Below, in pieces: positions 1,865 through 17,565 of a DNA stretch of 35,029 nt (position 1 is its first letter; every line of letters starts with the position of its first letter). Position numbers and translations under genes: made by a program. Below the pieces are notes generated by a model. The model had not been told where the DNA came from, did no database searches, and was given only the letters and a program-made list of their open reading frames with translations. Source of the DNA: Pseudomonadota bacterium (GTDB lineage Bacteria; Pseudomonadota; Gammaproteobacteria; Steroidobacterales; Steroidobacteraceae); contig JAJYUA010000036.1 in the NCBI GenBank assembly GCA_021792755.1, positions 1 to 35,029 of the forward strand, given 5' to 3'.

Positions 1865-2500
1865 CTAGGTGCCGTCGCGGATTTCAACGTAGTCCTCGTC
1901 ATTTCGGTTGACGATGACCCAAATCGCCACCGCTGGCTCGTTGCCGATCGTCCACAGGCGATGGGGTTGATCGGCGCCGTAGGAAACGGAGTCGCCGGCC
2001 TTCAGCTCATATTTTGAGAATCCGATCTGCAGTCCGAGCTTGCCGGAGATGACATAGGCGTATTCCTTGCCTCCGTGGCGGAACAGGGAGTCCTCGGGGC
2101 AGGACTCTGCACCGACCGCATAGGTCACTTTCAGGAATTCCACCTTCTCGTCCGGGCGGACGGTGAGGCGTTCCCAGACTACCCCCGCCGCCAGACGCAG
2201 TCGCTCACGGTTCGTGCCGCGCTGAATCGGGCTCTCGGCGCCTGAGGTGGTCTGCTCCTTGGCGCGGGTCTGATTACGCGCCGGCGTGGCATGATTGAAC
2301 AGCTCGTCGATCTGCATTCCGAGAATCGTCGTCAGCGACCAGAGCGTGCTGACGGAGGGCATGACGCGACCGTTCTCGATCTGCGAGATCATGCTCGGCG
2401 AAATCTTGGCGCGGCGCGCGACCTCGCGAAGACTCAATCCTCTTCGATTGCGCTCCTCGCGAAGCTGCTTGCCGAGGTAGGAGAGGTCTGGAGCATTCAC
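1865..2500 (-). CDS. XRE-type transcriptional regulator with C-terminal cupin domain
   Basis: A helix-turn-helix of the Cro/CI (XRE) type occupies about residues 8-65 (LGKQLREERNRRGLSLREVA...SPSMISQIENG). A linker follows, then a cupin_2 barrel near residues 120-195 (RHGGKEYAYVISGKLGLQIG...LKAGDSVSYGADQPHRLW). This two-part build is known from PuuR/SutR-like regulators, where the cupin senses a small ligand. The GTG at 2500 gives 211 residues, a normal length. In-frame ATGs at 2608 and 2641 would add an Arg-rich, low-complexity leader that looks untranslated, although 2608 has a GGTGGG in front, so the start is uncertain. It sits downstream of the TonB receptor on the same strand and is a good candidate regulator for the neighbouring catabolic genes. 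That role is inferred from position and type. Confidence 0.85.
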   Translation of the reverse strand: MNAPDLSYLGKQLREERNRRGLSLREVARRAKISPSMISQIENGRVMPSVSTLWSLTTILGMQIDELFNHATPARNQTRAKEQTTSGAESPIQRGTNRERLRLAAGVVWERLTVRPDEKVEFLKVTYAVGAESCPEDSLFRHGGKEYAYVISGKLGLQIGFSKYELKAGDSVSYGADQPHRLWTIGNEPAVAIWVIVNRNDEDYVEIRDGT

Positions 2501-2641
2501 GGTTGAGGCGCGGCGAGTGTCCGCTCGGCCGCTCAAGCGTGCCCCCTTTGCCGCACCCCGTCGCCGACCGGTAGTCGGGCGCGTTTCAAACGCCGCCGAG
2601 ATTCGCATTTGCCCACCGGAGTTCGATCGCGCTGCATGCAA

Positions 2642-3324
2642 GGAATCGGTCTTAAATTCTCACCTTATGTGGCGGATTATCTTACGCGAATTTGATAAAA
2701 ATTGCAGCAAGCCGGAGACATTGGTGAGCCAGGCAAGCGCGATCCGGCCGTTGCGTCACGCGGTGCCGCGGCGAGCTGTTCAGACACCTCGGTTTGCTGC
2801 AGCTCTTGAGGCGGGCGGCGGTGCGCGCCGAAAGCGATGCTGTACTCGAGCGGCGCGCGCGAGCGGGTGCGCAGCCTGCATTCTTGGAGGCGCCCGCCCT
2901 TGCCCGACAGCGGCCGTGCCGGCAGAGATCCGGCAGAACATTGCGGTGCGCTCTCACTTGATGCGGCCTTCGCCGTGCGCCCATTGCCCGGGAGGGGTGA
3001 TGACCGAGCCGGTGCCGCGAAACACCAATGGCTGCAGCTCCGGGGCCGCTCCCGGCCGGACCATCGGCTTGGCTCGCCCGGTGCAGGAGGGGGAACTCGT
3101 GATCTCAGCGTGTGCAGAGGACCGCGGCGCCACGGCGGCCTGCAAGCCGGGCCGGCATGAGACGGGGCCCCTGGAATCAAAATGATCCGAGGGGCCCGAA
3201 GCTAGATTTCCCTTTTTTCCTTTTTTCAGATGACCCCATCAGGCCGGCGCAAGCCTGCCGCCGCGGAAGTTAAACCCGCGCCGCGATCCGTCAGCTGCGC
3301 GCGCTATTCCGCGGCATTTCGCGC
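2642..3324. other. Gene-poor spacer between regulator and TonB receptor
   Basis: About 680 bases without a recognisable gene. Open frames exist on both strands but have Arg/Ala/Pro-rich, non-family composition. A short minus-strand frame (2954-3145) ends in a plausible-looking tail (LQPLVFRGTGSVITPPG), possibly a decayed gene end, but I cannot name it. The stretch just left of the receptor gene contains a hairpin, listed separately. An AT-rich patch near 2660-2710 upstream of the regulator could hold its promoter; no good -35/-10 pair was found. Confidence 0.5.
3165..3226 (+). terminator. Hairpin followed by pyrimidine/T-rich tract
   Basis: GGGCCCCT (3165-3172) pairs perfectly with AGGGGCCC (3190-3197). 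Inside, GGA-TCA pairs with TGATCC with one bulged A, giving a long, stable stem. About a dozen bases later comes CCCTTTTTTCCTTTTTT (3210-3226). This resembles a plus-strand factor-independent terminator, but the T-tract is displaced and no clear plus-strand gene ends here. In the minus direction, in which the receptor gene is read, there is no T-tract after the stem. A role in ending or processing receptor mRNA is only possible. Confidence 0.35.
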
Positions 3325-5559
3325 TCAGAAGCGGTACTCGAAACTCACGCCGTACCGGCGCGGCAGAGCCCGCCAGAGGAATCCGCCGGGCGAAAACTCG
3401 GCGTTGTAGATGGTGTTCGTGAGGTTCTTCGACCACAGAGCGAACGACCATCTGCCGGCTTCCAGTCCGAACCGCAGGTTGACCAGGGAAACGGGGTTGC
3501 GTGAGGTCACGTTGTAGGGATCCCACCACGTGCGTCCGAGCTCGTGGAAGTCCAGGCGCACAGTTCCCACGAGCCCTTCCTCGATAGGCTGGCGGTACAT
3601 TCCACCGGCGTTGATCGTATCGCGGGTGACGAGCGGTGCCTGGTTGCCGAGGACGGTCGGGTCTGCCATGGCGGTGATCCTGCTGTCGGTGTAGCCGTAG
3701 CCCGCATACAGTTCCAGGCGGTTGGTCGGACGCGCAGTCAGTTGAATTTCTGCCCCCTTGTAGGTGGCGTTCAGGTTGCCGAGATTCTGCGTGGAGTTCG
3801 CGGCGATATAGACGAAGAAATAGCCGTTCCTGGAGTGCGTGTGAAACACGTCGGCATCGACGCTCAGGCGGTGATGGAACATATCGCCCTTTACACCGAG
3901 CTCGTACGTATCGGCGATCTCCGCCTTGAACGTGTCGCCGACGCCAAGGATGTGATTCGCCTTCGCCACCGACGCCACTCCAGTTTGATTGAAACCGCCG
4001 CTGCGAAAGCCTTGGCTCCAGTCCGCGTAAATCGTCCAGTCGGCGTTCGGCTGATAACGCAGGGTGAATTTCGGCTGCCAGGCGGCCCAGGTGTGCGTGC
4101 GCACCTCGCCCGTGTACGCCGTCGGATCGGGCAAAAACCGTTGCGGTGTGCGGGTGGTGTCACTTTCGGTATCGGAGTCGTAGCGTAGCGCGGCATCGGC
4201 CTGCCATTTCTTCGAAAGCGTGTATGTGGCGTCTCCGTACCACGCCCAGGCGTTGCTGTTCTGAAAGTCAGCGAGAAACGTCACGTTCGTATTGGTTGCG
4301 TACGGATTGGCGGGATTGACGATCGGGGTTTCGTACACCGCCGGAACGCCGAGCCCCCGGTCGACGATGTTGTCGGTCGAGATGAAGCGTTCCTTGTGCA
4401 GGAAGTAGAAGCCGGTTATCCAGCGAAACGCATTCTGCGACGGCGAGGTGAAACGCACGTCCTGGCTCCACGAGCGCACGCGCACGAACTGGCTCTGACT
4501 TTCGTCGAACGGGCCGCCGAGGGAGGCCGGAACTCCCGCCGTCAGCGCGTACTCCAGGGAAGAAGTGATCGGGCGGAAGTCATAGGCATCGCCGGTGTCG
4601 ATCTCCTTGGTCTGGTCGTAGTCCGTGATCGAGCGGAATGTCCCATAACCCGGGTCGTAATCGAGCTTCAGCGCGGTATCCATTATGTCGCGATGATCCA
4701 TTCCCAGGTTGTTGGTCTGAATCGGGCTCGTGACATCGTTGGCGTTCGGCGGTGTGGTGAAATCAGAGAACGGATTGGACGGGTTGGCGCGCGGAATGAC
4801 GAAGTAGTACGCGGTCGTCTGGACCCGGTCGTAAAAGAAGCGCCAATCCGCGGTGAGCTTGCTGTTCGGCGTCCACAGCAGTCGCAGCCTGCCGGAGTAA
4901 TCGCGGTACGGATCGGCCTTGCGATGCAGATAGACATTCTCCAGGTAGCCGCCGGTGTTATAGACGTCGAGCCCGACCCGGTACAGCAGCGTGCGGCGGG
5001 AATTGACAGGGCCCGTCACGGTAGAGTCCAGACGCTCTGAGGGACCGTTGCCGATGCCTACCCGAACCCGTCCCCCGAAGTGCTTCTGAGGCGGCACTGT
5101 GTGGATGATGATGGCGCCAGCAATCGCATCGCGTCCGTAGAGGGCACCCTGAGGGCCCTTCAGTACCTGGATCTGGTCGACGTTGTAGAGCTGGGTGGCG
5201 AACTCCTCCGGGTCGGTTTCCTGCACGCCGTCGACGATTACGGCGACGGACGGCTCGCTGTTGCGAGCCTGCGAGATTCCGCGCAAAGTGACGAAAGCGT
5301 TGCCGACGTTCTGGGTTTCGACCAGCGTCATGTTCGGCACCATCGCTATGAAACTGCTGGGGCTGTCGATCCCTGCGGACCTGATCGTCTGCCGAGTGAA
5401 GACGCTTTCGCTGATGGGCACGTTGTGGACAAGCTCTTTACGCTCGCGGGCCGTCACCACGATCTCGCGCAGCGTGACGGTTTTGGCGAGGGCCGCAGTG
5501 GCGATCAAGTCCGGCAGCGCCAGTGCCGCTGCTAATACCCATGCATTCGAGTTGCGCAC
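3325..5559 (-). CDS. TonB-dependent outer-membrane receptor
   Basis: A 744-residue outer-membrane transporter. It opens with a signal peptide (about residues 1-25, ending in ATAALA). A TonB-box-like stretch REIVVTARE follows, then a plug domain near residues 40-155 with the conserved VPNMTL, VTLRGI, DGVQ and VLKGPQGALYGRDAIAGAI motifs. The rest is a 22-strand barrel rich in alternating aromatic residues, ending in the expected terminal Phe (FEYRF). The GTG at 5559 is preferred because GGGGG lies seven bases upstream; a longer frame to 5745 lacks a signal peptide. The type (RGISQ, VTARE) is that of receptors for organic substrates in sphingomonads and related bacteria rather than of classic siderophore receptors. 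Lying between a ligand-sensing regulator and a catabolic operon, it probably imports the substrate. The substrate is unknown. Confidence 0.93.
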   Translation of the reverse strand: MRNSNAWVLAAALALPDLIATAALAKTVTLREIVVTARERKELVHNVPISESVFTRQTIRSAGIDSPSSFIAMVPNMTLVETQNVGNAFVTLRGISQARNSEPSVAVIVDGVQETDPEEFATQLYNVDQIQVLKGPQGALYGRDAIAGAIIIHTVPPQKHFGGRVRVGIGNGPSERLDSTVTGPVNSRRTLLYRVGLDVYNTGGYLENVYLHRKADPYRDYSGRLRLLWTPNSKLTADWRFFYDRVQTTAYYFVIPRANPSNPFSDFTTPPNANDVTSPIQTNNLGMDHRDIMDTALKLDYDPGYGTFRSITDYDQTKEIDTGDAYDFRPITSSLEYALTAGVPASLGGPFDESQSQFVRVRSWSQDVRFTSPSQNAFRWITGFYFLHKERFISTDNIVDRGLGVPAVYETPIVNPANPYATNTNVTFLADFQNSNAWAWYGDATYTLSKKWQADAALRYDSDTESDTTRTPQRFLPDPTAYTGEVRTHTWAAWQPKFTLRYQPNADWTIYADWSQGFRSGGFNQTGVASVAKANHILGVGDTFKAEIADTYELGVKGDMFHHRLSVDADVFHTHSRNGYFFVYIAANSTQNLGNLNATYKGAEIQLTARPTNRLELYAGYGYTDSRITAMADPTVLGNQAPLVTRDTINAGGMYRQPIEEGLVGTVRLDFHELGRTWWDPYNVTSRNPVSLVNLRFGLEAGRWSFALWSKNLTNTIYNAEFSPGGFLWRALPRRYGVSFEYRF

Positions 5560-5841
5560 GTTAAATCCCCCTTGTATGAACGGAATCGTCGGTTGTCGGC
5601 GTTTCAATGTAATTGCGCGCCGGGCAAGCCGGCGCTCGCGCGCGTGCGTGGGCGCATCACGAAGTCGGCGGCTTTCGCCTCGCGCAGTCGTACTGCGATT
5701 GGTGCGGTTATTCGATGCGATCCGGGCGGGCGGCGTAGCGGACATGGCGGGCCGACTTGCCGGTCGGGCGATCCATGTGCAACGCGCTTGCAGCTGCTAA
5801 CACGCATGGCGAAGTGGCGGCAGAGGGTGCCGTGTGGCGGT

Positions 5842-6318
5842 TCAGTCGTCTGTGCCCAACCACAAGGCGATCAGAATGGCCGCGGCAAAGAGCCGAAAGG
5901 CATCCTGCAGCACGTTGAGCTTCGTGCTCTGCCACATCAGAAAGTATTCCTGGGCGATGACCAGAAAAACGATGAAATACAGGCACGCGGCCGCGCCGAG
6001 TCCCGAGTAGGCGGCCGATTTCGCGGCGACGAACCGCTCCTTGTGTCCGCGGCTTCGCCACAGCGTGACGGTTGCAGCCCAGCAGAGCGCCGCACTCGTC
6101 GCCTCTGAAAGGATGATCAGCCCGAACGCCGCCCAGATCAGCAGCGGATTTTGGATCGCCCGCCACATGGCGTGCGGATTGCGGTACGTGGTCTGCATGC
6201 CCATGGCAGTGCTGACGGCGGCGAAGCCGGTGTGCGGCATGGTGAGGTTGCCGAGGACCGCCAGAGTCAGCACCAGCGCCATTGCGGCGACCAGCAGTGT
6301 CTTTAGTGTTCTGATCAC
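5842..6318 (-). CDS. DUF2165-family small integral membrane protein
   Basis: A 158-residue protein with about four membrane helices: TLLVAAMALVLTLAVLGN near the N-terminus, LLIWAAFGLIILSEATSAALC, GLGAAACLYFIVFLVIAQEYF and a final FRLFAAAILIALWLG. The motif HAMWRAIQNPLLIWAAF and the EYFLMWQS segment match the uncharacterised DUF2165 family (about 160 residues). The start is the GTG at 6318, with GGGGATCCT just in front; a longer frame to 6540 would put an Arg-rich, soluble leader before the first helix and is unlikely. It is read leftward toward the TonB receptor gene, 282 bases away, and may share the promoter at 6694-6722. Function unknown; the context suggests an accessory role in transport or membrane adaptation. 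Confidence 0.8.
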   Translation of the reverse strand: MIRTLKTLLVAAMALVLTLAVLGNLTMPHTGFAAVSTAMGMQTTYRNPHAMWRAIQNPLLIWAAFGLIILSEATSAALCWAATVTLWRSRGHKERFVAAKSAAYSGLGAAACLYFIVFLVIAQEYFLMWQSTKLNVLQDAFRLFAAAILIALWLGTDD

Positions 6319-6416
6319 AGGATCCCCGGCTCGTTGAGAGTTCTGAGATTTGCTTGCGACCGCGCTGCCTCGGGGGTAAGCCGCCGAGGGTCCGCCGGAG
6401 CTTTGCCGGCGGGCGG

Positions 6417-6599: not shown

Positions 6600-6670
6600 G
6601 TCAATCACCTCGAAGGAGGAGACGTTCTCCCTCGGGCGGCTTCGCTGGCTGACGGGCGGCGGCCGATCGC

Positions 6671-7330: not shown

Positions 7331-7352
7331 CTTCAGAGAGAGGAACCGCCTA

Positions 7353-8252
7353 GTGTCGCATCACGTTGCGCGAGCCAGTCAGATCAGGCCGTTGCCGGCC
7401 TACGGGCAGCACAGCCAAGGATTTCGCCGCAGCTCGGTCGTTGGCAGGGCATGCCACGCCGTGCACACCGATCTTGGATTCTGCGAGCTCGATGCGGGCG
7501 GACGGGTCGACGTGCATGTGCAATCGTTCGAGGAGCTCTTTTACGTGACCGAGGGCAGCCCCGTCTTGATCCTCGATGGTCGCGGTTACCCGATGTGTCC
7601 CGGCGCCTGCGGCGTGATTCCGATCGGTACGCCACACGCCTGGCGCGGAGCGGACGAGGGCACCGCGAGGTGGATCGACATGCTGACGCCGATTCCACGC
7701 GACGGCAGCGGTCCCGGCGACTTGTTCTTCCTCGGTCGACCTGAAGGCGTGCGGATCGAGCCACTCGATATCCGCGATCCGCGCACGCTGCATTTCTTTC
7801 GCATGACCGATGACGACATCACGCTCGAGAAGCTCAAGGTGGGCGCGCGGGTGGATGCTCCGACCGTCTCCGCCAGCATGGCGACCGCGTTGCTCGCCTA
7901 CAGCGGCATCGCGGTGAAGATGTTGGTGGACCAGAGAATGTCCGCGGCGCTGGCCACGATGTTCATGGTCGAGTACCAGCCGGGCGGTGTGGCGCACGAG
8001 CACGACCATCCGCTGGAGGAGAGCTACACCATCTTGAAAGGGCAGGTCGAGGCGGTCGCCGACGGCGTCACCTATGTGCTGAAGGAGGGCGATGTGCTGT
8101 GGAGCGCGGTGGGTTGCGTGCATGCATTCCGCAACCCGAGCAAGTCCACAGTCCGGTGGCTCGAGACGCAGTCGCCGCAGCCTCCGGCGCGCCATTCTTA
8201 CCGCTTCAATCGTGACTGGGAATACCTGGAAAATAAGATCAGGCGGAAATAG
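7353..8252 (+). CDS. Bicupin protein (two cupin_2 domains), first gene of the catabolic operon
   Basis: A 299-residue protein with two cupin barrels, near residues 40-115 and 200-275. The C-terminal barrel has a complete metal site: H215, H217 or H219, E222/E223 and H257 (motif HEHDHPLEES, then AVGCVHAFRN). The N-terminal barrel has H55, then Q57 where the second His should be, E60/E61 and H95, so it may not bind metal well. One empty and one loaded barrel is a known arrangement, for example in the Mn-dependent ureidoglycine aminohydrolase, and some dioxygenases are also bicupins. The start is the GTG at 7353 with AGAGAGG upstream. The SDR gene begins two bases after the stop, so the genes are surely co-transcribed. 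A hydrolase, isomerase or dioxygenase role on the imported substrate is possible; none is proven. Confidence 0.85.
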   Translation: MSHHVARASQIRPLPAYGQHSQGFRRSSVVGRACHAVHTDLGFCELDAGGRVDVHVQSFEELFYVTEGSPVLILDGRGYPMCPGACGVIPIGTPHAWRGADEGTARWIDMLTPIPRDGSGPGDLFFLGRPEGVRIEPLDIRDPRTLHFFRMTDDDITLEKLKVGARVDAPTVSASMATALLAYSGIAVKMLVDQRMSAALATMFMVEYQPGGVAHEHDHPLEESYTILKGQVEAVADGVTYVLKEGDVLWSAVGCVHAFRNPSKSTVRWLETQSPQPPARHSYRFNRDWEYLENKIRRK

Positions 8253-8254
8253 AC

Positions 8255-8944
8255 ATGACCGGCAGCGCAATCGTCATTGGGGGCACGCAGGGCATCGGCT
8301 TGCAGATCGCGAGCCGGATGTCGATGCGGGGCGAACAGGTGATCATAGCCGGCCGCGACGGACAGCGGTGCGCGGACGTCGCCCGGGAACTGGGGCGCGG
8401 TGCGAGTGGACTCGCCGTGGATCTGGCCAGGCCGCGTGAAATAGCCTCGGCACTGGAGCGGGTGCCGACGGTCCGGCACGTAGTCATAAGCGCCATTCAA
8501 CGCGACGCCAATTCCGTGCGCGACTACGACGTCGATCGCGCGCTCAATCTCGTGACGCTCAAGCTGGTGGGCTATACGCAGGCCGTTCACGCCTTGCTGC
8601 CGAAGCTGGCGCCCGGTGCCTCGATTGTTCTGTTTGGCGGCCTCGCAAAGGAGCGTCCTTATCCGGGGTCGACGACGGTCACGACCGTCAATGGCGCAGT
8701 CGCCACGCTCGTGCACACCCTGGCGGTGGAGCTTGCGCCGGTGCGTGTCAACGCGATCCACCCGGGGATCATAGGCGACAGCCCCGCCTGGTCGGGGAAG
8801 AACCTCGATGCCGTGATCAGCCGCACGCCCACGAAACGCCTGGCTACCATGGGCGATGTCGCGGACGCGGCGCTGTTTCTGCTGGACAACCAGTCGATCA
8901 ATGGAGTGAACCTCAACATCGATAACGGCTGGTTGCTCACCTGA
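8255..8944 (+). CDS. SDR-fold protein lacking the catalytic Tyr and Lys
   Basis: A 229-residue Rossmann protein with the nucleotide-binding motif GGTQGIG (residues 9-15). Strand order and the closing segments are typical of short-chain dehydrogenases: LAVELAPVRVNAIHPG, then the C-terminal SINGVNLNIDNGW. Yet the Tyr-x3-Lys pair is gone. The aligned stretch is TTVTTVNGAV, with Val142 for Tyr and Asn146 for Lys, and the usual catalytic Ser region reads IVLFGGLA. Classical hydride transfer by the Ser-Tyr-Lys mechanism is therefore unlikely. It may bind NAD(P) and catalyse another reaction, use other residues, or serve a non-enzymatic role. The operon position, tight spacing and lack of stops argue for a functional gene rather than decay. 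Fold is certain, activity uncertain. Confidence 0.85.
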   Translation: MTGSAIVIGGTQGIGLQIASRMSMRGEQVIIAGRDGQRCADVARELGRGASGLAVDLARPREIASALERVPTVRHVVISAIQRDANSVRDYDVDRALNLVTLKLVGYTQAVHALLPKLAPGASIVLFGGLAKERPYPGSTTVTTVNGAVATLVHTLAVELAPVRVNAIHPGIIGDSPAWSGKNLDAVISRTPTKRLATMGDVADAALFLLDNQSINGVNLNIDNGWLLT

Positions 8945-8966
8945 GCGGCGCTGCGGAGAAACGCGA

Positions 8967-10409
8967 ATGACGGCGGTACGAGGAGATAATTCCGCGGCTC
9001 GAGCGATTCCGGTCGACTGCGGTGAGGCAGGCCGGCGCGTGCTGATCAAGGGCGGCACGGTGCTCAGCATGGATCCGAAGGTCGGCGATTTCCCCGAGGC
9101 TGACGTGCTGATCGAAGGCGGCACGGTGCTCGCCGTCGGGCCGCACCTCGATGCGACAGACGCGGTGGTCATCGATGCGAGCGGCATGATTGTCATGCCG
9201 GGCTTCATCGACACACATCATCATCAGTTCGAAACTGCGCTGCGCAGCTTTCTTGCCGATGGCATCCTGATCAACGACGGCCATCTGCACGGCGCAGTCA
9301 ACTATTATGAGCACATTCTGCAGAGATTTTCCCTGGCATACCGGCCGCAGGACGTCCATATCAGCGTGCTGTTCGGCTCCCTCGCGCAGCTCGATACGGG
9401 CGTGACCACGGTCATGGATGTCTCGCAGATCCATCACACTCCGGAGCACTCCGACGCCGTCGTGCAGGGGCTGCGGGATGCCGGCCGCCGCTCGGTGTTC
9501 GGCTATTTCGAGGGCTGGGGAGACGGCACGCAGTATCCGCAGGACGCGCGGCGGCTGAAGAAGGAGCATTTCTCTTCCGCCGACCAGCTGCTGACGATGG
9601 TGATGGGCGGAGAGATCTATATTCCAGGCTATGAAAAGTCATGGAGTATCGGGCGCGATCTGGCCGTTGCGGTGGCCCTGCACGTCGTCGGGACCTTCGG
9701 AATGGCCCCGACCTTCGACGAACTGGCGAGGGCTGGGCGGTTCGGTGCGGACAACATCTTCATTCATATGACTGGGATGAGCGACTTTGCGTGGAAAGTC
9801 GCCGCCGACGTGGGGGCGCACGTGTCCCTTGCGGTGCCTATCGAGATGACGATGCGGCACGGGATGCCGCCGTTGCAGAAGGCGCTCGACCTTGGCATGC
9901 AGCCGTCGCTCTCGAGTGACGTGGAATGCACCATGACGGCCGATCCGTTTACGCTGATGCGCAGCGCATTTACGGTGCAGCGGGCTTTTGTCAACGAGGC
10001 GGCGCTCGCAGGCAAGGAGCGGCTTGCGGAACTGCTGAGCTGTCACGATGTGATCCGCTTTGCGACACATGAGGGCGCGAAGGGCCTTGGACTGGACCAC
10101 AAAACGGGCTCTCTGAGCCCAGGCAAGCAGGCCGATGTCGTCCTGCTCGACGCATCCGCGCTCAATGTCGCGCCGCTCAATCATGCGGCCGGCGCCGTTG
10201 TGACGCTCATGGATCGCAGCAATGTCGATACCGTGATGGTCGCGGGCAGGATCCGCAAGTGGCAAGGCAAGCTGCTGGGCGCCGACCTCGGCAAGCTCAG
10301 GCGTGAGCTCGAAGCGAGCCGCGACTACCTCTTCGGTGCTGCGGGCATCGAGCGTGACCTGTTCCGTGGCTGCTCCCACGCTGCAGCGGGGTGCGGCAAA
10401 GGCACATGA
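8967..10409 (+). CDS. Amidohydrolase-superfamily metal-dependent hydrolase (deaminase/chlorohydrolase type)
   Basis: A 480-residue enzyme of the cytosine deaminase/TrzN/AtzB branch. The N-terminal beta-sandwich (VLIKGGTVLSMDP) leads into MPGFIDTHHHQ, which carries the H84-x-H86 metal pair. Further ligands are H239 (ALHVVG), H267 (FIHMTG) and D318 (SLSSDVE). The C-terminal part has the standard GSLSPGKQADVVLLD and the closing sandwich. The Glu that normally lies three residues after the third metal His (HxxE) and acts as acid/base in deaminases is Gly here, so the mechanism may differ. GGAG nine bases before the ATG supports the start. The enzyme would hydrolyse a C-N or C-X bond of a ring or amide, probably an early step of the pathway; the substrate cannot be told from sequence. 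Confidence 0.9.
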   Translation: MTAVRGDNSAARAIPVDCGEAGRRVLIKGGTVLSMDPKVGDFPEADVLIEGGTVLAVGPHLDATDAVVIDASGMIVMPGFIDTHHHQFETALRSFLADGILINDGHLHGAVNYYEHILQRFSLAYRPQDVHISVLFGSLAQLDTGVTTVMDVSQIHHTPEHSDAVVQGLRDAGRRSVFGYFEGWGDGTQYPQDARRLKKEHFSSADQLLTMVMGGEIYIPGYEKSWSIGRDLAVAVALHVVGTFGMAPTFDELARAGRFGADNIFIHMTGMSDFAWKVAADVGAHVSLAVPIEMTMRHGMPPLQKALDLGMQPSLSSDVECTMTADPFTLMRSAFTVQRAFVNEAALAGKERLAELLSCHDVIRFATHEGAKGLGLDHKTGSLSPGKQADVVLLDASALNVAPLNHAAGAVVTLMDRSNVDTVMVAGRIRKWQGKLLGADLGKLRRELEASRDYLFGAAGIERDLFRGCSHAAAGCGKGT

Positions 10410-10525: not shown

Positions 10526-11413
10526 ATGGACATCAAGGTAGGGCTCATCGGCGCCGGCCGCATGGGCTCGGCAATCGTGCGTCGCTTACTGGCTGCCGGC
10601 TGCGATGTGCTCGTGTACAACCGCACGCCGCAGAAAGCGTCGGCGCTTGTGCAGTCGGGTGCACGTGTCGCAAGTTCCATTGAAGCGGCTTGCAGGGGGC
10701 GCGAGCTGGTCATCACCATGGTCGCGGACGACGCGGCTCTGCAGGATGTGCTGCTACGGTCCGGCGGACTGCGCGACAGCCTCCCCGCAGGGGCAACGCA
10801 TGTGGCGATGGGTACGCACAGCGTTGCGGCCATCGGTGCCGCCGAATCGGCCCATCGCGCGGCACGGCAGAATTTCGCGGCGGCACCGGTGCTCGGTCGG
10901 CCCGAGGCCGTGGACGCCGGGCAAGCGGGCATCGTTGTCGGCGGCTCGGCTGCGGCGCTCGCAGCCTGCCGGCAGACGCTGGCGGTCATCGGCCGGCGCC
11001 TGTTCGAGGCGGGAGACGAGGCCGAGAGGGCCGCGGCGCTGAAGCTGACGAACAATTTCGTGTTGGCCGGCTGCATCGAGGTGCTGAGCGAGGCATTCGC
11101 GCTCGTCCGCAAGTACGGCGTGGCGCCCTCCGTGTGTTTCGAAATGCTGACCGAGGGCCTGTTTTCAGCTCCGGCGTACCGCACCTACGGACGCATCATC
11201 GCCGAGCAGAGCTACGACCAGGTGAGCTTTACAGCGCGACTCGGCTTGAAGGACTTGAATCTGGTGCTCGCTGCGGCCGACGCTGCGTGCGTGCCGCTGC
11301 CGAGCGCCAATGTGGTCCGTGATCGCTTGCTCAGCGCCATTGCGCGCGGTGACAGCGATCGCGATTGGTCGGTGATCGCCCGTGAGCAGGCCCGCGCGAG
11401 TGGGCTCGATTGA
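10526..11413 (+). CDS. NAD(P)-dependent beta-hydroxyacid dehydrogenase (3-hydroxyisobutyrate dehydrogenase family)
   Basis: A 295-residue protein starting with the dinucleotide motif GLIGAGRMG (residues 6-14) and VYNRTPQK, the NADP-type region after beta2. The C-terminal all-helical domain carries the family's catalytic Lys173 and Asn177 in ALKLTNNF and the later GLKDLNLVLAAAD segment. The substrate-binding G-G-x-x-G loop region is changed (VLGRPEAVDAG instead of the usual VSGG...A..G), so the substrate may not be a simple 3-hydroxyacid; imine reductase- and glyoxylate reductase-like relatives share this fold. The ATG at 10526 is preferred, with GGGGGA six bases upstream. It lies 116 bases after the amidohydrolase and 15 before the M24 gene. 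It likely oxidises or reduces a pathway intermediate. Confidence 0.88.
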   Translation: MDIKVGLIGAGRMGSAIVRRLLAAGCDVLVYNRTPQKASALVQSGARVASSIEAACRGRELVITMVADDAALQDVLLRSGGLRDSLPAGATHVAMGTHSVAAIGAAESAHRAARQNFAAAPVLGRPEAVDAGQAGIVVGGSAAALAACRQTLAVIGRRLFEAGDEAERAAALKLTNNFVLAGCIEVLSEAFALVRKYGVAPSVCFEMLTEGLFSAPAYRTYGRIIAEQSYDQVSFTARLGLKDLNLVLAAADAACVPLPSANVVRDRLLSAIARGDSDRDWSVIAREQARASGLD

Positions 11414-11428
11414 TTCGGAGATAACGCC

Positions 11429-12682
11429 ATGAAATACAATCGTCCACACGCCACGGCCCCCTGGGGCACGATGGCCAAAGACTGGGAACTCGGGGTCGAC
11501 TACCCAAAGATGGTGCGCCAGCGCTTCGAGCGCGCGCAGAACGCGGTCAAAGCCGCGGGGTTGGGGGCTGTCCTGTGTTTCAACGTCGACAACGTGCGCT
11601 ACGTCACCGGGACACATATCGGTGAGTGGGCGCGCGACAAGTTTGACCGCTACTGTCTCTGCCCGCGCGACGGGGAGCCGTACTTGTGGGATCCGGCGCC
11701 GCCGGCCAAGCGCATCAGCTCTCCCTGGATCGCCGATCGGGTCGCCGCGCCGGTGAGCAACCTGCAGGGCGCCTTGCCGCCGAGGACCGGCGCGCAGAAG
11801 GATTTTGCGAGACAAATCAAGAAGATGCTCGTCCATTATGGGATCGAGCGTGAGCCGCTCGGAATCGACCTGCTCGAGTTGCCGATGCTGCGCGCGCTCG
11901 AGAAGGAAGGCGTCGAGGTCGTCGACGGCCAGCAGGCGATGCTCGATGCCCGCGAGACCAAGACGCCCGAGGAGATCCAGTGCCTGAAGGTCGCCGCCGC
12001 GATGGTCGATGCGACCTACTACGATATCTGCAAGGCGATCCGGCCGGGCATGCGCGAGAACGAGCTGGTGGCGATCGCGAACGACCGCCTCTTCCGCCTC
12101 GGGTCCGAGCGCGTCGAGTGCGTCAATTCCGTCGCAGGTCCGCGCGGCACGCCGCACTGTCACACCTTCTCCGACCGCATCATCCAGCCGGGCGACATGG
12201 TGTACCTGGACATCATGCATTCGTTCAACGGCTATCGCACCTGCTACTACCGCACTTTCGTCTGCGGTGAGCCGAACAAGCACCAGATCGAGGCATACGA
12301 TCTGGCCTCCAAGTGGATCAGCGCCTCGATCGATGCGATTCGCCCGGGCGCGACGGTCGATGACATCGCCCGCGCCTGGCCTGCCGCCGAGGAATTCGGC
12401 TACCGCGACGAGGAGGAGGCTTTTCTCCTGCAGTACGGCCACGGCATTGGTCTGAGCCTGTGGGAGCGCCCGATCATCACCCGGCGCTTCACCGGCCAGG
12501 GCTCGGTGCTGAAGGAGGGCATGGTGTTTGCGGTCGAGACCTGGAAGGGTGCGGCCGACGGTTCCGGTGCTGCGCGCATCGAGGAGGAAGTGGTCGTCAC
12601 GCGCGATGGCTGCGAGGTGATCACGAACTTCCCCTCGCACCGGTTGATCTCCTGCGGCCTACCCGGCTGCGACGTCTTCTAG
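11429..12682 (+). CDS. M24-family (pita-bread fold) hydrolase or lyase, DddP/creatinase-like
   Basis: A 417-residue protein with the creatinase_N domain (about 28-165) and an M24 catalytic domain (about 180-405). The fold is shared by Xaa-Pro aminopeptidases, creatinase, ectoine hydrolase DoeA and the DMSP lyase DddP. The metal site is partly kept: D261 (YLDIMH), H338 (YGHGIGL), E370 (FAVET) and E385 (ARIEEEV). The second metal Asp, expected at 272, is Cys (YRTCYYRTF). That speaks against an ordinary aminopeptidase and for a small-molecule enzyme with one metal, another metal or none. GGAG upstream supports the ATG. It lies inside the catabolic run, after the dehydrogenase and 102 bases before the E1 alpha gene. 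Cleavage of a C-N or C-S bond in a small substrate is the reasonable guess. Confidence 0.88.
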   Translation: MKYNRPHATAPWGTMAKDWELGVDYPKMVRQRFERAQNAVKAAGLGAVLCFNVDNVRYVTGTHIGEWARDKFDRYCLCPRDGEPYLWDPAPPAKRISSPWIADRVAAPVSNLQGALPPRTGAQKDFARQIKKMLVHYGIEREPLGIDLLELPMLRALEKEGVEVVDGQQAMLDARETKTPEEIQCLKVAAAMVDATYYDICKAIRPGMRENELVAIANDRLFRLGSERVECVNSVAGPRGTPHCHTFSDRIIQPGDMVYLDIMHSFNGYRTCYYRTFVCGEPNKHQIEAYDLASKWISASIDAIRPGATVDDIARAWPAAEEFGYRDEEEAFLLQYGHGIGLSLWERPIITRRFTGQGSVLKEGMVFAVETWKGAADGSGAARIEEEVVVTRDGCEVITNFPSHRLISCGLPGCDVF

Positions 12683-12784
12683 AGAGCAAGTTCGACCGGC
12701 GGGCGCTTGGAGACGCAGCACCGCTGCCGGATCCTCAGGCGTGAGGCGCTCGTTTCACGAACAATGATCGGGTGACTTAACACC

Positions 12785-13813
12785 ATGACGGAAAAGACAC
12801 GGCCGAGTGCCGGCGAGACGGCACCAGCGGGGCAGATTTCCCCCGAGAAGCGTCTGGAGATGTACCGGCTGCAGGTTCTGCTGCGTCAGGCGGAGCAGCG
12901 CGCCTACGACTTGTTCCTGCAGAACAAGATCAAGGGCACGAGCCATCTGTCGCTCGGGCAGGAGGCGGTGGCGGCGGGCGCGGCGGCGGCGATGCGCCCG
13001 GGGGATCTTTCCTTCTGTACCTACCGCGGACACGCGCACACGCTCGCGCGCGGTGTGCCGGTCGAGAAGGTGCTCGGGGAACTGATGGGGCGGGACAACG
13101 GATTGATGCGGGGCAAGGGCGGCTCGATGCACCTCACCTCCCTCGAGCACGGCGTGATGGGCTCGTACGCGATCGTCGGGGCGCACCTGCCCATCGCGTG
13201 CGGAGCCGCTTGGCGCGCGCAGTACAAGGGGGACAGTGATGTGTCGGTGTGCTTCTTCGGCGATGGCGCCACCAATATCGGCGCCTTCCATGAGGCACTG
13301 AACTTCGCCGCGTGCCGCAAGCTCCCGGTCGTGTTCGTCTGCGAGAACAACCTTTATATGGAATACACGCCGATCGCGGAGGTCACGGCGGTGAAGCATC
13401 CCGGTGCGGACCGTGCCGGCGCATACGGGCTCGAGCGCATCGTCATCGACGGCAACGACGCGGACGTCGTGTACCTCACGATGTCCAAGGCATTCGCTCG
13501 CGCGCGTGCGGGCGAGGGCCCGTCGCTGATCGAATGTCTGACCTACCGCCACAGCGGACACAGCCGCGCGGATCCGGCGAAGTATCGGCTGCCCGGTGAG
13601 CTCGACAGGTGGAAGGAGCGCGATCCGGTGTCAATCTATCGCAAGCGCCTCGAGGCCGAGGGTGTCCCGGGCGCAACGCTCGATGCGATCGATGGCGAGG
13701 TCCGCCGCGTCGTCGACGACGCCACCCAGGCCTGCGAGGCGGCCCCGTCGACCTCGGAAGATATTTTGTTCACAGACGTCTATGCCGACGGGGGCTGTTC
13801 ATGGCGCAACTGA
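12785..13813 (+). CDS. 2-oxoacid dehydrogenase E1 component, alpha subunit (pyruvate/acetoin dehydrogenase type)
   Basis: A 342-residue thiamine-diphosphate enzyme subunit. The ThDP motif GDG (159-161) ... NN (188-189) is intact, and YRGHAH (80-85), MRGKGGSMHL and RHSGHSRADPAKYR match E1 alpha subunits of the two-subunit type (PDH of Gram-positives, acetoin dehydrogenase AcoA, branched-chain E1). With E1 beta it decarboxylates a 2-oxoacid, or cleaves acetoin, and passes the acyl group to lipoyl E2. The last 13 bases overlap the start of the beta-subunit gene, which implies translational coupling. The 102-base gap before it is the second largest inside the operon. Because it shares an operon with hydrolases, the substrate may be a 2-oxoacid made by this pathway rather than pyruvate itself. 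Confidence 0.93.
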   Translation: MTEKTRPSAGETAPAGQISPEKRLEMYRLQVLLRQAEQRAYDLFLQNKIKGTSHLSLGQEAVAAGAAAAMRPGDLSFCTYRGHAHTLARGVPVEKVLGELMGRDNGLMRGKGGSMHLTSLEHGVMGSYAIVGAHLPIACGAAWRAQYKGDSDVSVCFFGDGATNIGAFHEALNFAACRKLPVVFVCENNLYMEYTPIAEVTAVKHPGADRAGAYGLERIVIDGNDADVVYLTMSKAFARARAGEGPSLIECLTYRHSGHSRADPAKYRLPGELDRWKERDPVSIYRKRLEAEGVPGATLDAIDGEVRRVVDDATQACEAAPSTSEDILFTDVYADGGCSWRN

Positions 13814-14781
13814 CGTACCGCGAGGCGGTGGCACGAGGTATCGCGCAGGAAATGGCTCGCGACGAGAACGTCGTGCTGCTCGGGGAAGATGTCGCCAAGG
13901 CCGGCGGGGTGTTCAAGGCCACCGTGGGCCTGTTCGAGCAGTTCGGGCCGAAGCGCGTGCTCGACACGCCGATTTCCGAGCAGGCCATTCTCGGGGCGGC
14001 CATGGGCGCGGCCATGACCGGTCTTAAGCCGATCGCGGAGATCATGTTCGCCGACTTCCTGGGCGTCTGCTACGACTACATCGCCAACGAGTTTCCGAAG
14101 ACCCGGTACATGACCAATGGCCAGGTCAGCTGTCCGCTGGTCGTGCGCTGCGGAAACGGCGGCGGTGCGCGCTTCGGCGCCCAGCACAGCCAGAGTGTCG
14201 AGAACTGGTGCATGCAGTTTCCGGGGCTGAAAGTAGTCTCGCCGTCTTCCCCGGTGGACGTCATCGGGCTGCTGGCGGCCGCGGTGCGTGACCCCGATCC
14301 GGTCGTGTTCCTGGAGCACAAGTCGTTGTATGCGGTCAGAGGCGAAGTGCCCGATGGGGAAATCCTCGACACGCTCGGGACGGCCAAGATCCTGCGGCCC
14401 GGAGGCGATGCGAGCATCCTTGCGCTTGGGATGATGGTGCCGCGCTCGCTGCAGGCGGCCGAGGCGCTTCAGGAGAGACACGGCATCAGCTGCGAGGTGA
14501 TCGACGTGCGCTCGCTGGTGCCGCTCGACACGCAGTGCATCCTGGGCTCGGTTGCGCGCACGGGCAGAGTATTCACCGTGGAGGAGAATCCACGCCAGCT
14601 GGGCTGGGGGAGCGAGCTCGTCTCGATCATCGCGGACGAGGCATTCTATGACCTCGACGGGCCGGCGGTGCGCATCACGACTCCGAACATCCCGCTGCCC
14701 GCGGCCGATGCGCTCGAGGATCTCGCCATTCCATCCGTCGATCGCATCGTCGAGATGATCCGGCGGTCCTTGACGGCCTGA
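13801..14781 (+). CDS. 2-oxoacid dehydrogenase E1 component, beta subunit
   Basis: A 326-residue transketolase-like subunit with TYREAVARGIAQEMARDE, LLGEDV (Glu29, which assists ThDP), the TPISEQAILGAAMGAAM segment, the GAQHSQS loop and the transketolase C-domain (EVIDVRSLVPLD, VFTVEENP). Length and motifs are those of PdhB/AcoB-type subunits. The ATG at 13801 lies inside the 3' end of the alpha gene; an upstream in-frame extension belongs to alpha-coding sequence and is rejected. Together with alpha it forms the heterotetrameric E1. The next gene, an aldehyde dehydrogenase, begins four bases after the stop. Confidence 0.94.
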   Translation: MAQLTYREAVARGIAQEMARDENVVLLGEDVAKAGGVFKATVGLFEQFGPKRVLDTPISEQAILGAAMGAAMTGLKPIAEIMFADFLGVCYDYIANEFPKTRYMTNGQVSCPLVVRCGNGGGARFGAQHSQSVENWCMQFPGLKVVSPSSPVDVIGLLAAAVRDPDPVVFLEHKSLYAVRGEVPDGEILDTLGTAKILRPGGDASILALGMMVPRSLQAAEALQERHGISCEVIDVRSLVPLDTQCILGSVARTGRVFTVEENPRQLGWGSELVSIIADEAFYDLDGPAVRITTPNIPLPAADALEDLAIPSVDRIVEMIRRSLTA

Positions 14782-14785
14782 TGTC

Positions 14786-16246
14786 ATGACAACAGATTAC
14801 GCGAGTTTGCTCGCCGGCGTGCACACGGACCTGTGGATCGACGGCAACTGGTGCCTCCCGCACTCCGGGGAGCGTTTCGAGGTCATCGATCCGGCCACGG
14901 AGCGCCCGATCACGACCGTTGCGAGCGCCTCATCCGAGGACTGCCGGGCTGCGCTCGATGCCGCCGAGCGTGGGCTCGAGACGTGGTCACGGAAGAGCCC
15001 GCGCGAGCGTGGCGAGGCGCTGCGCAAGGCCTGGGAGCTCATGATGCGCGAGCACGAGCGGCTCGCGCGCATCATCACGCTCGAGAACGGCAAGAGCCTG
15101 AGCGATGCGCGCGGGGAGGTCGCTTACGCGGCGGAGTTCTTCCGCTGGAACGCAGAGGAGGCCGTGCGCATCTGCGGGCGGATTTCGCACGCTCCGCAGT
15201 CCGGTGCGCGGATCATGGTACACCACAAGCCGGCCGGAATCGCGCTGCTGGTCACGCCGTGGAACTTTCCGGCCGCGATGGCGACCCGCAAGATCGGACC
15301 GGCGCTGGCGGCCGGCTGCAGCGTCGTGATCAAGCCGGCGAGCGCCACGCCGTTGACGATGCTCGCTCTCGTGCCGCTGCTGGCGGAGGCCGGCGTGCCA
15401 CCGGGTGTGGTGAACGTGGTGCCGTCGCGGCGCTCGCGGCAGGTCGTTGCCGATATGCTGGCGGATCTGCGCGTGCGCGTGGTCTCCTTTACCGGCTCGA
15501 CGGAGGTCGGGCGCGCCCTGATCAGCGAGGCGGCGCACAATGTGGTGAGACCCTGCATGGAGCTCGGCGGCAATGCGCCGTTCATCGTGCTTGACGATGC
15601 CGATCTCGATGCCGCGGTCGAAGGGGCAATGATCGCGAAGATGCGCAATATGGGCGAGGCGTGCACGGCGGCCAATCGCTTCTACGTGCATCAGTCGCTC
15701 CTTGCCGAATTCTCGGAAAAGTTCGCCGCACGCATGGGTGCGCTGAAGACCGGCAACGGGCTGAGCGAAGGCGTCAGCGTCGGCCCGCTCATCGATGCCG
15801 CAGCGCGCGAGCGGGTCGCGAGCCTCGTTGCCGATGCAGTGCGCCGCGGGGCGCGGCTCTTGACGGGCGGGAGAGCCCCCACGGGTCCCGGTTTTTTCTA
15901 CCTTCCGACGGTGCTGACGGATGTTGCGGCGGATGCCGCCGTGGTACGTGATGAGATCTTCGGGCCGGTTGCGGCAATCCAGGCTTTCCGCACGGACGAA
16001 GAGGTCGTGCGGCTCGCGAATGCATGCGAGTTCGGCCTCACCGCCTATGTATTCAGCCGCGACCTCTCGCGCGGTCTGCAATTGTCCGAGCGGCTCGAGG
16101 TCGGGATGGTCGGCCTGAATCGCGGCCTGGTATCCGATCCCGCGGCGCCTTTTGGCGGGGTGAAGCTGAGCGGCCTCGGCCGCGAAGGAGGGAGCGAGGG
16201 AATCCAGGAGTACCTTGAGACACAGTACATCGCGGTCCGATGGTGA
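14786..16246 (+). CDS. NAD(P)-dependent aldehyde dehydrogenase (succinate-semialdehyde dehydrogenase-like)
   Basis: A 486-residue ALDH with all catalytic residues: N160 in VTPWNFP, K183 in IKPAS, the FTGSTEVGR nucleotide loop (235-243), E259 in MELGGN and the nucleophile C293 in GEACTAANRF. The C-terminal EIFGPV and PFGGVKLSGLGREGG are typical of the GabD/SSADH branch. It would oxidise a semialdehyde or other aldehyde to the acid. It sits between the E1 beta and E2 genes of the oxoacid dehydrogenase, 4 and 11 bases apart, so its expression is tied to theirs; this interruption is unusual. The substrate is unknown; a short-chain semialdehyde fits the branch. Confidence 0.93.
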   Translation: MTTDYASLLAGVHTDLWIDGNWCLPHSGERFEVIDPATERPITTVASASSEDCRAALDAAERGLETWSRKSPRERGEALRKAWELMMREHERLARIITLENGKSLSDARGEVAYAAEFFRWNAEEAVRICGRISHAPQSGARIMVHHKPAGIALLVTPWNFPAAMATRKIGPALAAGCSVVIKPASATPLTMLALVPLLAEAGVPPGVVNVVPSRRSRQVVADMLADLRVRVVSFTGSTEVGRALISEAAHNVVRPCMELGGNAPFIVLDDADLDAAVEGAMIAKMRNMGEACTAANRFYVHQSLLAEFSEKFAARMGALKTGNGLSEGVSVGPLIDAAARERVASLVADAVRRGARLLTGGRAPTGPGFFYLPTVLTDVAADAAVVRDEIFGPVAAIQAFRTDEEVVRLANACEFGLTAYVFSRDLSRGLQLSERLEVGMVGLNRGLVSDPAAPFGGVKLSGLGREGGSEGIQEYLETQYIAVRW

Positions 16247-16257
16247 GGAGCTGACTG

Positions 16258-17565
16258 ATGCAGATCCTGATGCCGCAGCTCGGTGAGACCGTCACAGAGG
16301 GCACGATCAGCAAGTGGCACAAGGCGGTAGGGGAGCCCGTGGCCGCAGGCGATCCGCTGTTTGAGATTGAAACCGACAAGACATCGATGGAGGTGCCGGC
16401 GGTCGTGGCGGGGGTGCTCGGAGAGATCCTCGTGCGCGCCGGCGATACTGTGCCAGTCGGCACTGTGGTGGGCGTGGTAGCCGAATCGGCGAGCGCGCCG
16501 CCTGGCGCAGCCGAGCGGGCGCAGAGGAGAGCGCGGCCGGCAAACGGTGCGCAGGGCCGGGCGGCCGCTGTGGCGGGCGAATCGCGCAATTGCGTTGCGG
16601 GGGCGCCGCTCGGCGCTTCGGTCGGTGCGTCGCAGCCGATTGATCCGTTCCATGGGCTGCGTACCCCGCAGCGCAACTTCGGCAAGGCGCGGCTGGCGAG
16701 CGGCGTGAAGGCGAGTCCGCGCGCGCGGCGTCTTGCGGCGGAGGCTGCTGTCGATCTCGCGCAGATCCGGGGCACCGGGCCGCGCGGCTGCATCGTCGCA
16801 GCGGACATCCAGCGCGTCCGCCAGCGGGTGCACGCGCAACCGGCCGGCGCAGCCGAGCAGGTCAAGGCGCTCTATGCGGGCACGAGCTATCGCGAGGTGC
16901 CGCTCGACAGCATGCGCAAGACAATCGCCCGGCGGCTGTCGGACTCGACGCAGCAGGTGCCGCACTTTTACCTGAGCGGCGATCTCAATGTGGAGGCGGT
17001 GCTGGCGCTGCGCAAGCAGATCAACGCGACGGCTTCGGTGCGCGTGTCGGTCAACGACTTTCTGCTCAAGGCCTTCGCGCTGGCGCTGCAGCGCGTGCCC
17101 GCGGCGAACGTCGCGTGGGCGGGGGACTGCCTGCTGCAATTCGAGCGCTCCGATATCGGAGTGGCTGTGGCCGTGCCCGGAGGGCTCGTGACGCCGGTCG
17201 TGCGCAGCGCCGATACGAAGGGCCTGCTGGGGCTTGCTCGCGAGGTCGGGGCGCTCGCAAGCCGCGCCCGCGAACGCAAGCTGCAGCCGGCCGAGTACGC
17301 GGGCGGCGCGGCCACCGTCAGCAACCTCGGCATGTATGGGGTGCGCAGCTTTCAGGCGATCGTCAACCCTCCCCAAGCCACCATTCTCGCGGTCGGGGCC
17401 GCAGAGCGGCGGGTGATCGAAGCATCGGACGGAACGCTGCGTGCGGCGACACTGCTTACGGTGTGCATCTCGGCCGATCATCGGGCCGTCGATGGCGTCG
17501 TCGCCGCGGAGCTGTTCGCCGCCCTGCGCCAGATCGTCGAGACCCGGATCAGCGACGTTCTCTAG
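16258..17565 (+). CDS. Lipoyl dihydrolipoamide acyltransferase (E2) of the 2-oxoacid dehydrogenase complex
   Basis: A 435-residue E2. One lipoyl domain (1-76) carries the lipoylated K41 in EIETDKTSME. An Ala/Arg-rich linker leads to a peripheral-subunit-binding domain (about 151-186, KASPRARRLA...GTGPRG), and the catalytic domain follows (about 200-435) with H408 and D412 in ADHRAVDG. GAGGAG lies before the ATG. E2 takes the acyl group from E1 and transfers it to CoA. Its binding domain should recruit E3, but no dihydrolipoamide dehydrogenase gene is nearby, so E3 must be shared with another complex. It is the last gene of the rightward operon, followed by a hairpin region and the convergent hsp20 gene. 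Confidence 0.93.
   Translation: MQILMPQLGETVTEGTISKWHKAVGEPVAAGDPLFEIETDKTSMEVPAVVAGVLGEILVRAGDTVPVGTVVGVVAESASAPPGAAERAQRRARPANGAQGRAAAVAGESRNCVAGAPLGASVGASQPIDPFHGLRTPQRNFGKARLASGVKASPRARRLAAEAAVDLAQIRGTGPRGCIVAADIQRVRQRVHAQPAGAAEQVKALYAGTSYREVPLDSMRKTIARRLSDSTQQVPHFYLSGDLNVEAVLALRKQINATASVRVSVNDFLLKAFALALQRVPAANVAWAGDCLLQFERSDIGVAVAVPGGLVTPVVRSADTKGLLGLAREVGALASRARERKLQPAEYAGGAATVSNLGMYGVRSFQAIVNPPQATILAVGAAERRVIEASDGTLRAATLLTVCISADHRAVDGVVAAELFAALRQIVETRISDVL

Follow-up and report, generated by a model that had tools for sequence, protein, structure and literature searches.

A TonB-receptor-linked operon with a cysteine-variant M24 protein, a candidate ring-opening enzyme, in a member of the Steroidobacteraceae

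Gene content of the locus

We analysed a contig of 35,029 bases (JAJYUA010000036.1, hereafter the window) from a Steroidobacteraceae genome (assembly GCA_021792755.1; genome G000 of our set, of which the window is all of contig C1), with a focus on positions 1865–17565, where a gene cluster probably serves the uptake and degradation of a six-carbon ring compound. An initial annotation of this DNA had described a TonB receptor, an XRE-cupin regulator and a nine-gene enzyme operon, and all of these are present in tight order. The eleven genes are open frames with coding-type G+C content at the third codon position (0.75–0.86), and the nine enzyme genes are co-directional. Given the short gaps between the latter (2, 22, 116, 15, 102, −13, 4 and 11 bases, with the dehydrogenase start at 10526), the nine plus-strand genes likely form an operon.

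On the minus strand lie the XRE-family regulator with a C-terminal cupin (1865–2500, frame open to 2641; HTH_3 and Cupin_2) and the TonB-dependent receptor (3325–5559, frame open to 5745; plug and beta-barrel domains). The plus-strand run starts with a bicupin (7353–8252; two Cupin_2 domains), a protein of the short-chain dehydrogenase/reductase (SDR) fold without the YxxxK motif (8255–8944; family search and alignment of 6 copies) and an amidohydrolase of the NF006056/PRK08204 subfamily with HxxG in place of HxxE (8967–10409; 425 bits). These 3 genes are followed by a dehydrogenase resembling HIBADH and tartronate-semialdehyde reductase (HADH; 10526–11413, frame open to 10511; family searches), an M24 protein (11429–12682; PF00557), E1 alpha of a thiamine-diphosphate-dependent dehydrogenase (12785–13813; PF00676, 318 bits to TIGR03182), E1 beta (13801–14781; 353 bits to NF006667, cut-off 321), an aldehyde dehydrogenase (ALDH) resembling succinate-semialdehyde dehydrogenase (SSADH) (14786–16246; best NCBIfam model TIGR01780) and E2 with lipoyl, E3-binding and acyltransferase domains (16258–17565; best NCBIfam model that of pyruvate dehydrogenase (PDH)-type acetyltransferases). 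The M24 protein carries a cysteine, Cys272, at a metal-ligand position and is our candidate for a ring-opening hydrolase. The starts of the regulator (2500), receptor (5559) and HADH (10526) are alternatives proposed by a codon-usage gene caller. A small DUF2165 membrane protein (PF09933; about 5842–6282, minus strand) was absent from the initial annotation.

Conservation of the gene block

Scanning whole contigs with the window M24 protein yielded 57 loci, of which one with 37 M24 residues (L071) was dropped, leaving 56 (L015–L070). Because the search patterns came from the M24 protein of the window, this set leans to near relatives; L015 is the same contig as C54 of genome G003 and was counted once, L068 holds the M24 end only, and tblastn at E 1e-15 served to label the neighbours. 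L015 and L016 contain the whole block, and L066 keeps the part from inside the M24 gene to E2, at a contig end. Identities in L015 and L016 are 92% and 88% for the regulator, 91% and 84% for the receptor and 76% and 73% for the DUF2165 protein. The M24 protein is the slowest-changing member, with 99% identity in L015 (others 76–97%) and 97% in L016 (others 73–94%).

Relatives of the block are also found in another class: the betaproteobacterial locus L024 contains a bicupin (63%), SDR (59%), HADH (25%), M24 (87%), fused E1 (35–36%) and E2 (39%), with a partial amidohydrolase relative (36%) at the contig edge and no ALDH found in the locus. Thus, the neighbourhood is a conserved one, as the initial annotation had supposed, and the lack of conservation in relatives that would have spoken against a single pathway was not observed. 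L030 holds HADH and M24 genes as well as a regulator (52%) beside bicupin and SDR genes. In Rhodococcus opacus 1CP, a region of about 50 kb on plasmid pR1CP1, interspersed with mobile elements, carries genes for M24, fused E1, E2, VOC, XRE, a flavin reductase, an NAD(P)-dependent oxidoreductase and a relative of the bicupin (31%). Among 274 genomes of the window's class, the bicupin (E ≤ 1e-30) and the amidohydrolase (E ≤ 1e-60) were each found in 1, the window's own. M24 matches at E ≤ 1e-40 were present in 11 of 60 relatives, own genome included, and exceeded 70% identity in 3 (G000, G003 and G010). Because E1 alpha, E1 beta and ALDH are, outside the lineage, closest to L042 (71–78%) and the M24 protein is closest to the type found in L017 and in Aromatoleum (Azoarcus) anaerobium LuFRes1, the operon is, by the affinities of its genes, mosaic in origin.

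A family-wide cysteine at the M24 metal site

Canonical M24 proteins are dinuclear metallohydrolases with 5 metal ligands (Asp, Asp, His, Glu and Glu). In the window protein, the second Asp is replaced by Cys272 and the other 4 ligands are kept. Cys272 is present in all 66 aligned M24 relatives (about 46–100% identical to the window protein; matches shorter than about 1.1 kb or interrupted by a stop were excluded), as are D261, H338, E370, E385, H243 and H245, and prolidases carry Asp at the cysteine position in the alignment. Since all 66 relatives share Cys272, the ligand change is, on this alignment, a trait of the family and not a local oddity. Among more distant relatives, 2 distinct proteins (36%) have the Cys (GYKSCYYRT), 3 (31–34%) have Asp and 1 (40%) falls outside the motif pattern used. 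The clade probably has thousands of members: of 8000 candidates scored, 7575 matched the window protein at E ≤ 1e-100, with the cysteine checked in the 66 mentioned above. Named members among those listed are mostly labelled Xaa-Pro peptidases.

The best NCBIfam match of the protein is DddP, at 116.5 bits (NF043017, cut-off 600), and the ectoine hydrolase DoeA models give 93.5 bits (NF038259, cut-off 575) and 64.2 bits (TIGR02993, cut-off 613). DddP has Asp, not Cys, 3 residues ahead of the RT pair. The M24 protein is 90% identical to that of A. anaerobium LuFRes1 and 91% to that of Thauera aromatica, and in the M24 tree the window protein and the 2 other copies of its lineage group with L017 (support 100/96), a locus that also holds AhtL, described below. 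In L065 (10001–11277), the M24 match of Magnetospirillum sp. SS-4 comes in 2 tblastn pieces, as if frame-shifted.

Genes that travel with the M24 gene

M24 was matched in 55 of the 56 loci, together with E1 in 38, E2 in 30, either of the two in 39 and HADH in 38; further partners are a CobW-type GTPase (37), any cupin (21), ALDH (17), VOC (17), old yellow enzyme (OYE; 13) and AhtL or AhtS (13). Where E1 is absent from a locus, the contig or the flank covered may simply end too early. Of 397 genomes sampled evenly across the phylum, a set fairer than the 56 loci but small in yield, 6 besides the window's own carry the M24 gene (E ≤ 1e-90; 47–50% identity), and in all 6 the fetched stretch contains E1, E2, an SSADH-like ALDH, an SDR and sugar-type ABC genes. 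The order in Tritonibacter is SDR, M24, E1 alpha, E1 beta, lipoyl protein, 'NAD-dependent succinate-semialdehyde dehydrogenase' and E2. At the centre of the operon is a family-wide altered M24 enzyme tied to an apparent C2 + C4 splitting complex.

A CobW/COG0523 GTPase adjoins or lies near the Cys-variant M24 gene in many loci (L018–L070, L088). A CobW-like protein that activates an M24 aminopeptidase is known in animals, and the GTPase may load the M24 metal site.

Enzymes of the lower and upper modules

The window ALDH has TIGR01780 (SSADH) as its best family, with 552.9 bits against a cut-off of 646, and 8 of its 9 top PDB matches carry the name SSADH. Residues R168, R298 and S450, which we take to be the carboxylate-binding Arg, Arg and Ser of solved SSADHs, are retained in 26 of 29 aligned ALDHs (exceptions L052, L053 and L059). 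E1 alpha scores 317.7 bits against the PDH E1 alpha model TIGR03182 (cut-off 394) and E2 scores 402.3 bits against the PDH-type acetyltransferase model TIGR01349 (cut-off 445). The counterparts in LuFRes1 pass: its ALDH reaches 855 bits (SSADH equivalog cut-off 828) and 757 bits (TIGR01780, cut-off 646), and its E2 reaches 506 bits on the acetyltransferase model (cut-off 445). It is from these LuFRes1 scores that we read the products as a C2 and a C4 unit split from a C6 compound. In L017, a HADH relative of 73% identity stands directly before the M24 gene.

The initial annotation had called altered active sites in 4 proteins (M24, SDR, amidohydrolase and the N-terminal cupin). The alterations are real, and 3 of them are common to relatives. 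The SDR has TTVTTVNG where YxxxK is expected, in all 6 aligned copies. In the amidohydrolase, which passes the PRK08204 model NF006056 (425.1 bits, cut-off 391), HxxE reads HVVG, with the final Gly in all 4 copies that cover the site (the fifth copy is cut off); the HxxE glutamate marks deaminase-type amidohydrolases, and by this mark the window protein is not one of them. The C-terminal cupin of the bicupin keeps HxH/E/H in the alignment and the N-terminal HxH is HxQ, a change confined to the window, L015 and L016; the 2 betaproteobacterial copies read HIH and HLH. A profile built from 6 single cupins of M24 loci, the LuFRes1 cupin included, matches both halves (E 1.8e-19). A reading of cupA and cupB as a split bicupin was set aside, since the matches were weak and cupC fits better.

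Amidohydrolases 65–69% identical to that of the window are encoded on plasmids of Martelella and Sinorhizobium (Hyphomicrobiales), next to genes for an extradiol dioxygenase, citryl-CoA lyase and CoA transferase (L137, L138); no M24 gene lies within the 29-kb stretch around them. The Alloyangia homologue (62%) has other neighbours, a 2,4'-dihydroxyacetophenone dioxygenase-family protein and an NADH:flavin oxidoreductase, and the closest relative (71%, Neorhizobium) is in a record without annotation. Because relatives of the amidohydrolase adjoin ring-cleavage genes, the settings of the upper-module relatives favour an aromatic or ring substrate. The bicupin, SDR and amidohydrolase are best read as a swapped-in upper module.

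Association with resorcinol-hydroxylase-type genes

Subunits of molybdoenzymes of the pyrogallol-transhydroxylase/resorcinol-hydroxylase family are encoded in 13 of the 56 M24 loci. AhtL belongs to the pyrogallol-hydroxytransferase family (best PDB match 4v4c, 1035 bits; small subunit 244 bits). Thauera aromatica strain AR-1 degrades 3,5-dihydroxybenzoate via hydroxyhydroquinone. RhL of Azoarcus anaerobius is described as belonging to the same family as pyrogallol hydroxytransferase and as converting resorcinol to hydroxyhydroquinone (PMC10100899). The LuFRes1 genome has a single match to PF21423, the RhL family, on plasmid pLuFRes1, about 9 kb from the M24 gene (90%), and between or beside the 2 genes lie those for fused E1, E2, E3, OYE, cupin, HADH, ALDH and CobW. 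We take this locus (L019) to be the anaerobic resorcinol cluster reportedly described by Darley et al. (2007), a label based on the strain being a resorcinol degrader and on the single RhL-family match.

PF21423 is matched 3 times in G000 (contig C39), 4 times in G003 and in 0 of 14 control genomes. The AhtL1 protein of C39 shares 58–63% identity with most homologues, full or partial, from genomes that carry M24 (LuFRes1, 58%) and 68–70% with one homologue in the genome of L030. Contig C39 (L084, L085) encodes 3 pyrogallol-hydroxytransferase-like large subunits; 2 of these form a divergent pair and are each accompanied by a small subunit. A class-V aminotransferase-like gene and a phosphoribosyl pyrophosphate (PRPP) synthetase gene are on the same contig.

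Proposed pathway and alternatives

From the gene content and its conservation, Cys272, the SSADH-type residues and the associations with E1/E2 and with resorcinol-hydroxylase-type genes, we propose a pathway in which each reaction, their order and the substrate are predictions. The operon would be a two-module, TonB-imported and regulator-controlled catabolic unit in which the M24 protein opens a ring, E1/E2 split the product to acetyl-CoA and succinate semialdehyde and the ALDH forms succinate, a reading to which we give even chances. The upper module (bicupin, atypical SDR and amidohydrolase) would convert the imported substrate, probably an oxygenated or amino-substituted ring, to a polyketone. 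The lower module (HADH, M24, E1 alpha, E1 beta, ALDH and E2) would act on a C6 cyclic polyketone, such as could arise from hydroxyhydroquinone/hydroxybenzoquinone or from an oxidised cyclitol. The M24 metalloenzyme is predicted to open the ring by hydrolytic (retro-Claisen) C–C cleavage, for example of cyclohexane-1,2,4-trione to 4,5-dioxohexanoate; HADH would reduce the diketone to an acyloin, E1/E2 would split the latter, much as acetoin dehydrogenase does, into acetyl-CoA and succinate semialdehyde, and the ALDH would oxidise the semialdehyde to succinate, with E3 presumably supplied from elsewhere in the genome. Import, sensing and enzymes that lead the carbon skeleton to an acyl-CoA, as the initial annotation had envisaged, are supported.

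Loci with sugar-type ABC genes and SDRs have the same core, in keeping with a ring polyketone as the intermediate common to them. On a broader and more tentative view, which we hold to be somewhat less probable than its opposite, the Cys272 clade as a whole would consist of metal-dependent C–C hydrolases that open cyclohexane polyketones and thereby provide a shared route from cyclitols, anaerobic polyhydroxybenzenes and the window substrate to acetyl-CoA and succinate, the ring fission of hydroxyhydroquinone included.

Several observations weigh against these proposals. We know of no precedent for C–C hydrolysis by an M24 protein, and the window ALDH, E1 alpha and E2 all score under the curated cut-offs. 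E1 and E2 are both lacking in 17 of the 56 loci, 9 of these being stretches of more than 15 kb. The LuFRes1 counterparts other than M24 are only 35–47% identical to those of the window. The end products of A. anaerobius in the literature are malate and acetate, which requires hydration and not reduction of the ring; were the ring hydrated instead of reduced, malate would take the place of succinate, in agreement with these products. PF21423 is present in 2 operon-bearing genomes, G000 and G003, and was not found by whole-genome search in G716, which has the full operon, or in G717, which has its right half, both being genomes of unstated completeness. In 16 chosen whole genomes with an M24 locus, PF21423 occurs in 9 (7 of 8 and 2 of 8) and is missing from 7, that of L024 among them. 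Conversely, 9 of the 11 PF21423-bearing genomes among the 60 relatives have no M24 protein above 70% identity (in 2 of these 9, G038 and G055, there are M24 relatives of 36% and 48% identity), and G010, with a 75% M24, has no PF21423 match. At E ≤ 1e-20, G000 and G003 yielded no match to the CobW partner. Because G716 and G717 gave no PF21423 match, 9 relatives have PF21423 without an M24 protein above 70% and no CobW match was obtained for G000 and G003, gene content does not bind the operon of this lineage to resorcinol hydroxylation. Resorcinol itself was rejected as the substrate in the window, PF21423 being not found in the operon-bearing G716.

The operon could still be the missing lower part of a resorcinol- or pyrogallol-type anaerobic pathway in this organism, fed by the AhtL-type enzymes of C39. 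That G000 and G003 carry both gene sets, the absence of PF21423 from the 14 controls and the above identities of C39 AhtL1 to homologues in M24-bearing genomes, highest for that of L030, are consistent with this, but PF21423 was not found in G716 and G717, the operon and the AhtL set are on different contigs, and G018 and G030 have AhtL genes without M24 at E ≤ 1e-40; we regard it as unlikely. A similarly low probability attaches to a scheme in which the M24 protein is a lyase or hydratase with DddP-like chemistry and the ring is opened by the thiamine-dependent E1, as by cyclohexane-1,2-dione hydrolase. DddP is indeed the best NCBIfam match (117 bits, cut-off 600) and E1 accompanies M24 in 38 of the 56 loci; against this, 9 M24 stretches longer than 15 kb have no E1 or E2, and DddP differs from the window protein by the Asp in place of Cys ahead of the RT pair.

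The initial annotation had favoured an amide- or nitrogen-containing substrate, and a pathway of this kind would have the amidohydrolase and M24 cut C–N bonds, as creatinase and ectoine hydrolase do, with E1/E2 oxidising a 2-oxoacid to an acyl-CoA. DoeA and creatinase are among the M24 relatives, and an amidase and RidA are encoded near a 50% M24 gene in Paenarthrobacter. However, the M24 protein falls far short of the cut-offs for DoeA and DddP, the HxxE glutamate is missing from the amidohydrolase, whose plasmid relatives adjoin extradiol ring-cleavage dioxygenases, the window M24 groups with resorcinol-type clusters, and the neighbours of M24 in the 6 sampled genomes include sugar-type ABC genes and SDRs. 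With its support coming from the single Paenarthrobacter locus, we set this reading aside as improbable, noting that nitrogen genes were not searched for systematically. Finally, the cluster might combine 2 unrelated known pathways side by side. Its mosaic origin, with different nearest loci for E1/ALDH and for M24, and the 2 plasmids with amidohydrolase relatives and no M24 in the 29-kb stretch shown would fit, but gene order is kept within the lineage and L024 again joins bicupin, SDR, HADH, M24, E1, E2 and a partial amidohydrolase, which makes a chance juxtaposition very improbable compared with the ring-opening pathway proposed here.

Neighbouring genes

In G003, a further cluster (L132, contig C54) lies near the operon, and its counterpart in G000 (L134, contig C25) is on another contig. 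It encodes a 769-residue protein with an OYE-like part, by eye resembling a flavin monooxygenase fusion of the anthraniloyl-CoA type, as well as SDR, MarR, enoyl-CoA hydratase, acyl-CoA dehydrogenase, RidA and cyclase-family proteins (by eye). A link between this cluster and the operon was rejected because of its separate contig in G000 and because no OYE homologue was found in G716. To the right of the operon, the window encodes ZnuA, an ABC ATPase, an ABC-3 permease, a Fur-family regulator and a NicO nickel transporter (26488–30434 and 31552–32613). A small heat shock protein (17806–18291) and a high-potential iron-sulfur protein (32858–33145) are encoded on the minus strand.

Comparison with known systems and implications

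The claim that no described pathway has this exact set of 9 genes stands as far as we know, but the families of the lower half do occur together in LuFRes1. In the literature searched, and for that literature only, we recognised no description of an M24/E1/E2 gene set. The pLuFRes1 cluster resembles the window in its M24 (90%), HADH (35%), SSADH-type ALDH (47%), E1 (35–36%), E2 (44%) and cupin. Unlike in LuFRes1, no molybdenum hydroxylase, OYE, sigma-54 regulator, CobW or E3 was found in the window operon, E1 is encoded by 2 genes and not by a fused one, and the TonB receptor, bicupin, SDR and amidohydrolase are added. Tritonibacter and the 6 sampled genomes share the core of Cys-variant M24, E1, ALDH and E2, but have ABC import and other SDRs, and the bicupin and amidohydrolase were not detected there. 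To our knowledge, the function of M24-E1 alpha-E1 beta-SSADH-E2 loci with sugar-type ABC genes is undescribed.

Acetoin dehydrogenase operons (acoABC with ALDH) likewise join both E1 subunits and E2 to an aldehyde dehydrogenase; the window differs in its SSADH-like ALDH and in the extra candidate for ring opening. DddP, a C–S lyase, and DoeA share D261, H338, E370 and E385 with the window M24, which differs from both in the cysteine ligand and reaches 117 bits on the DddP model (cut-off 600) and 94 bits on that of DoeA (cut-off 575). Closest in logic is dihydrophloroglucinol cyclohydrolase of the phloroglucinol pathway: in the available part of its description, metal-dependent retro-Claisen hydrolysis opens a cyclic 1,3-diketone, but the enzyme is of the 'Cyclase' family, unrelated to M24, and the 4 enzymes named there include no E1/E2 (PMC10470551). 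It is plausible that the enzyme chemistry of the operon is new within a known kind of pathway.

If the proposal is correct, the M24 fold would gain C–C bond chemistry and the annotation of a large family, whose named members among those listed mostly carry peptidase labels, would be corrected. The Cys272 protein would also be a candidate ring-fission enzyme for the anaerobic resorcinol/hydroxyhydroquinone route, and an old question could be put to the test using a single purified protein and a handful of small ketones.

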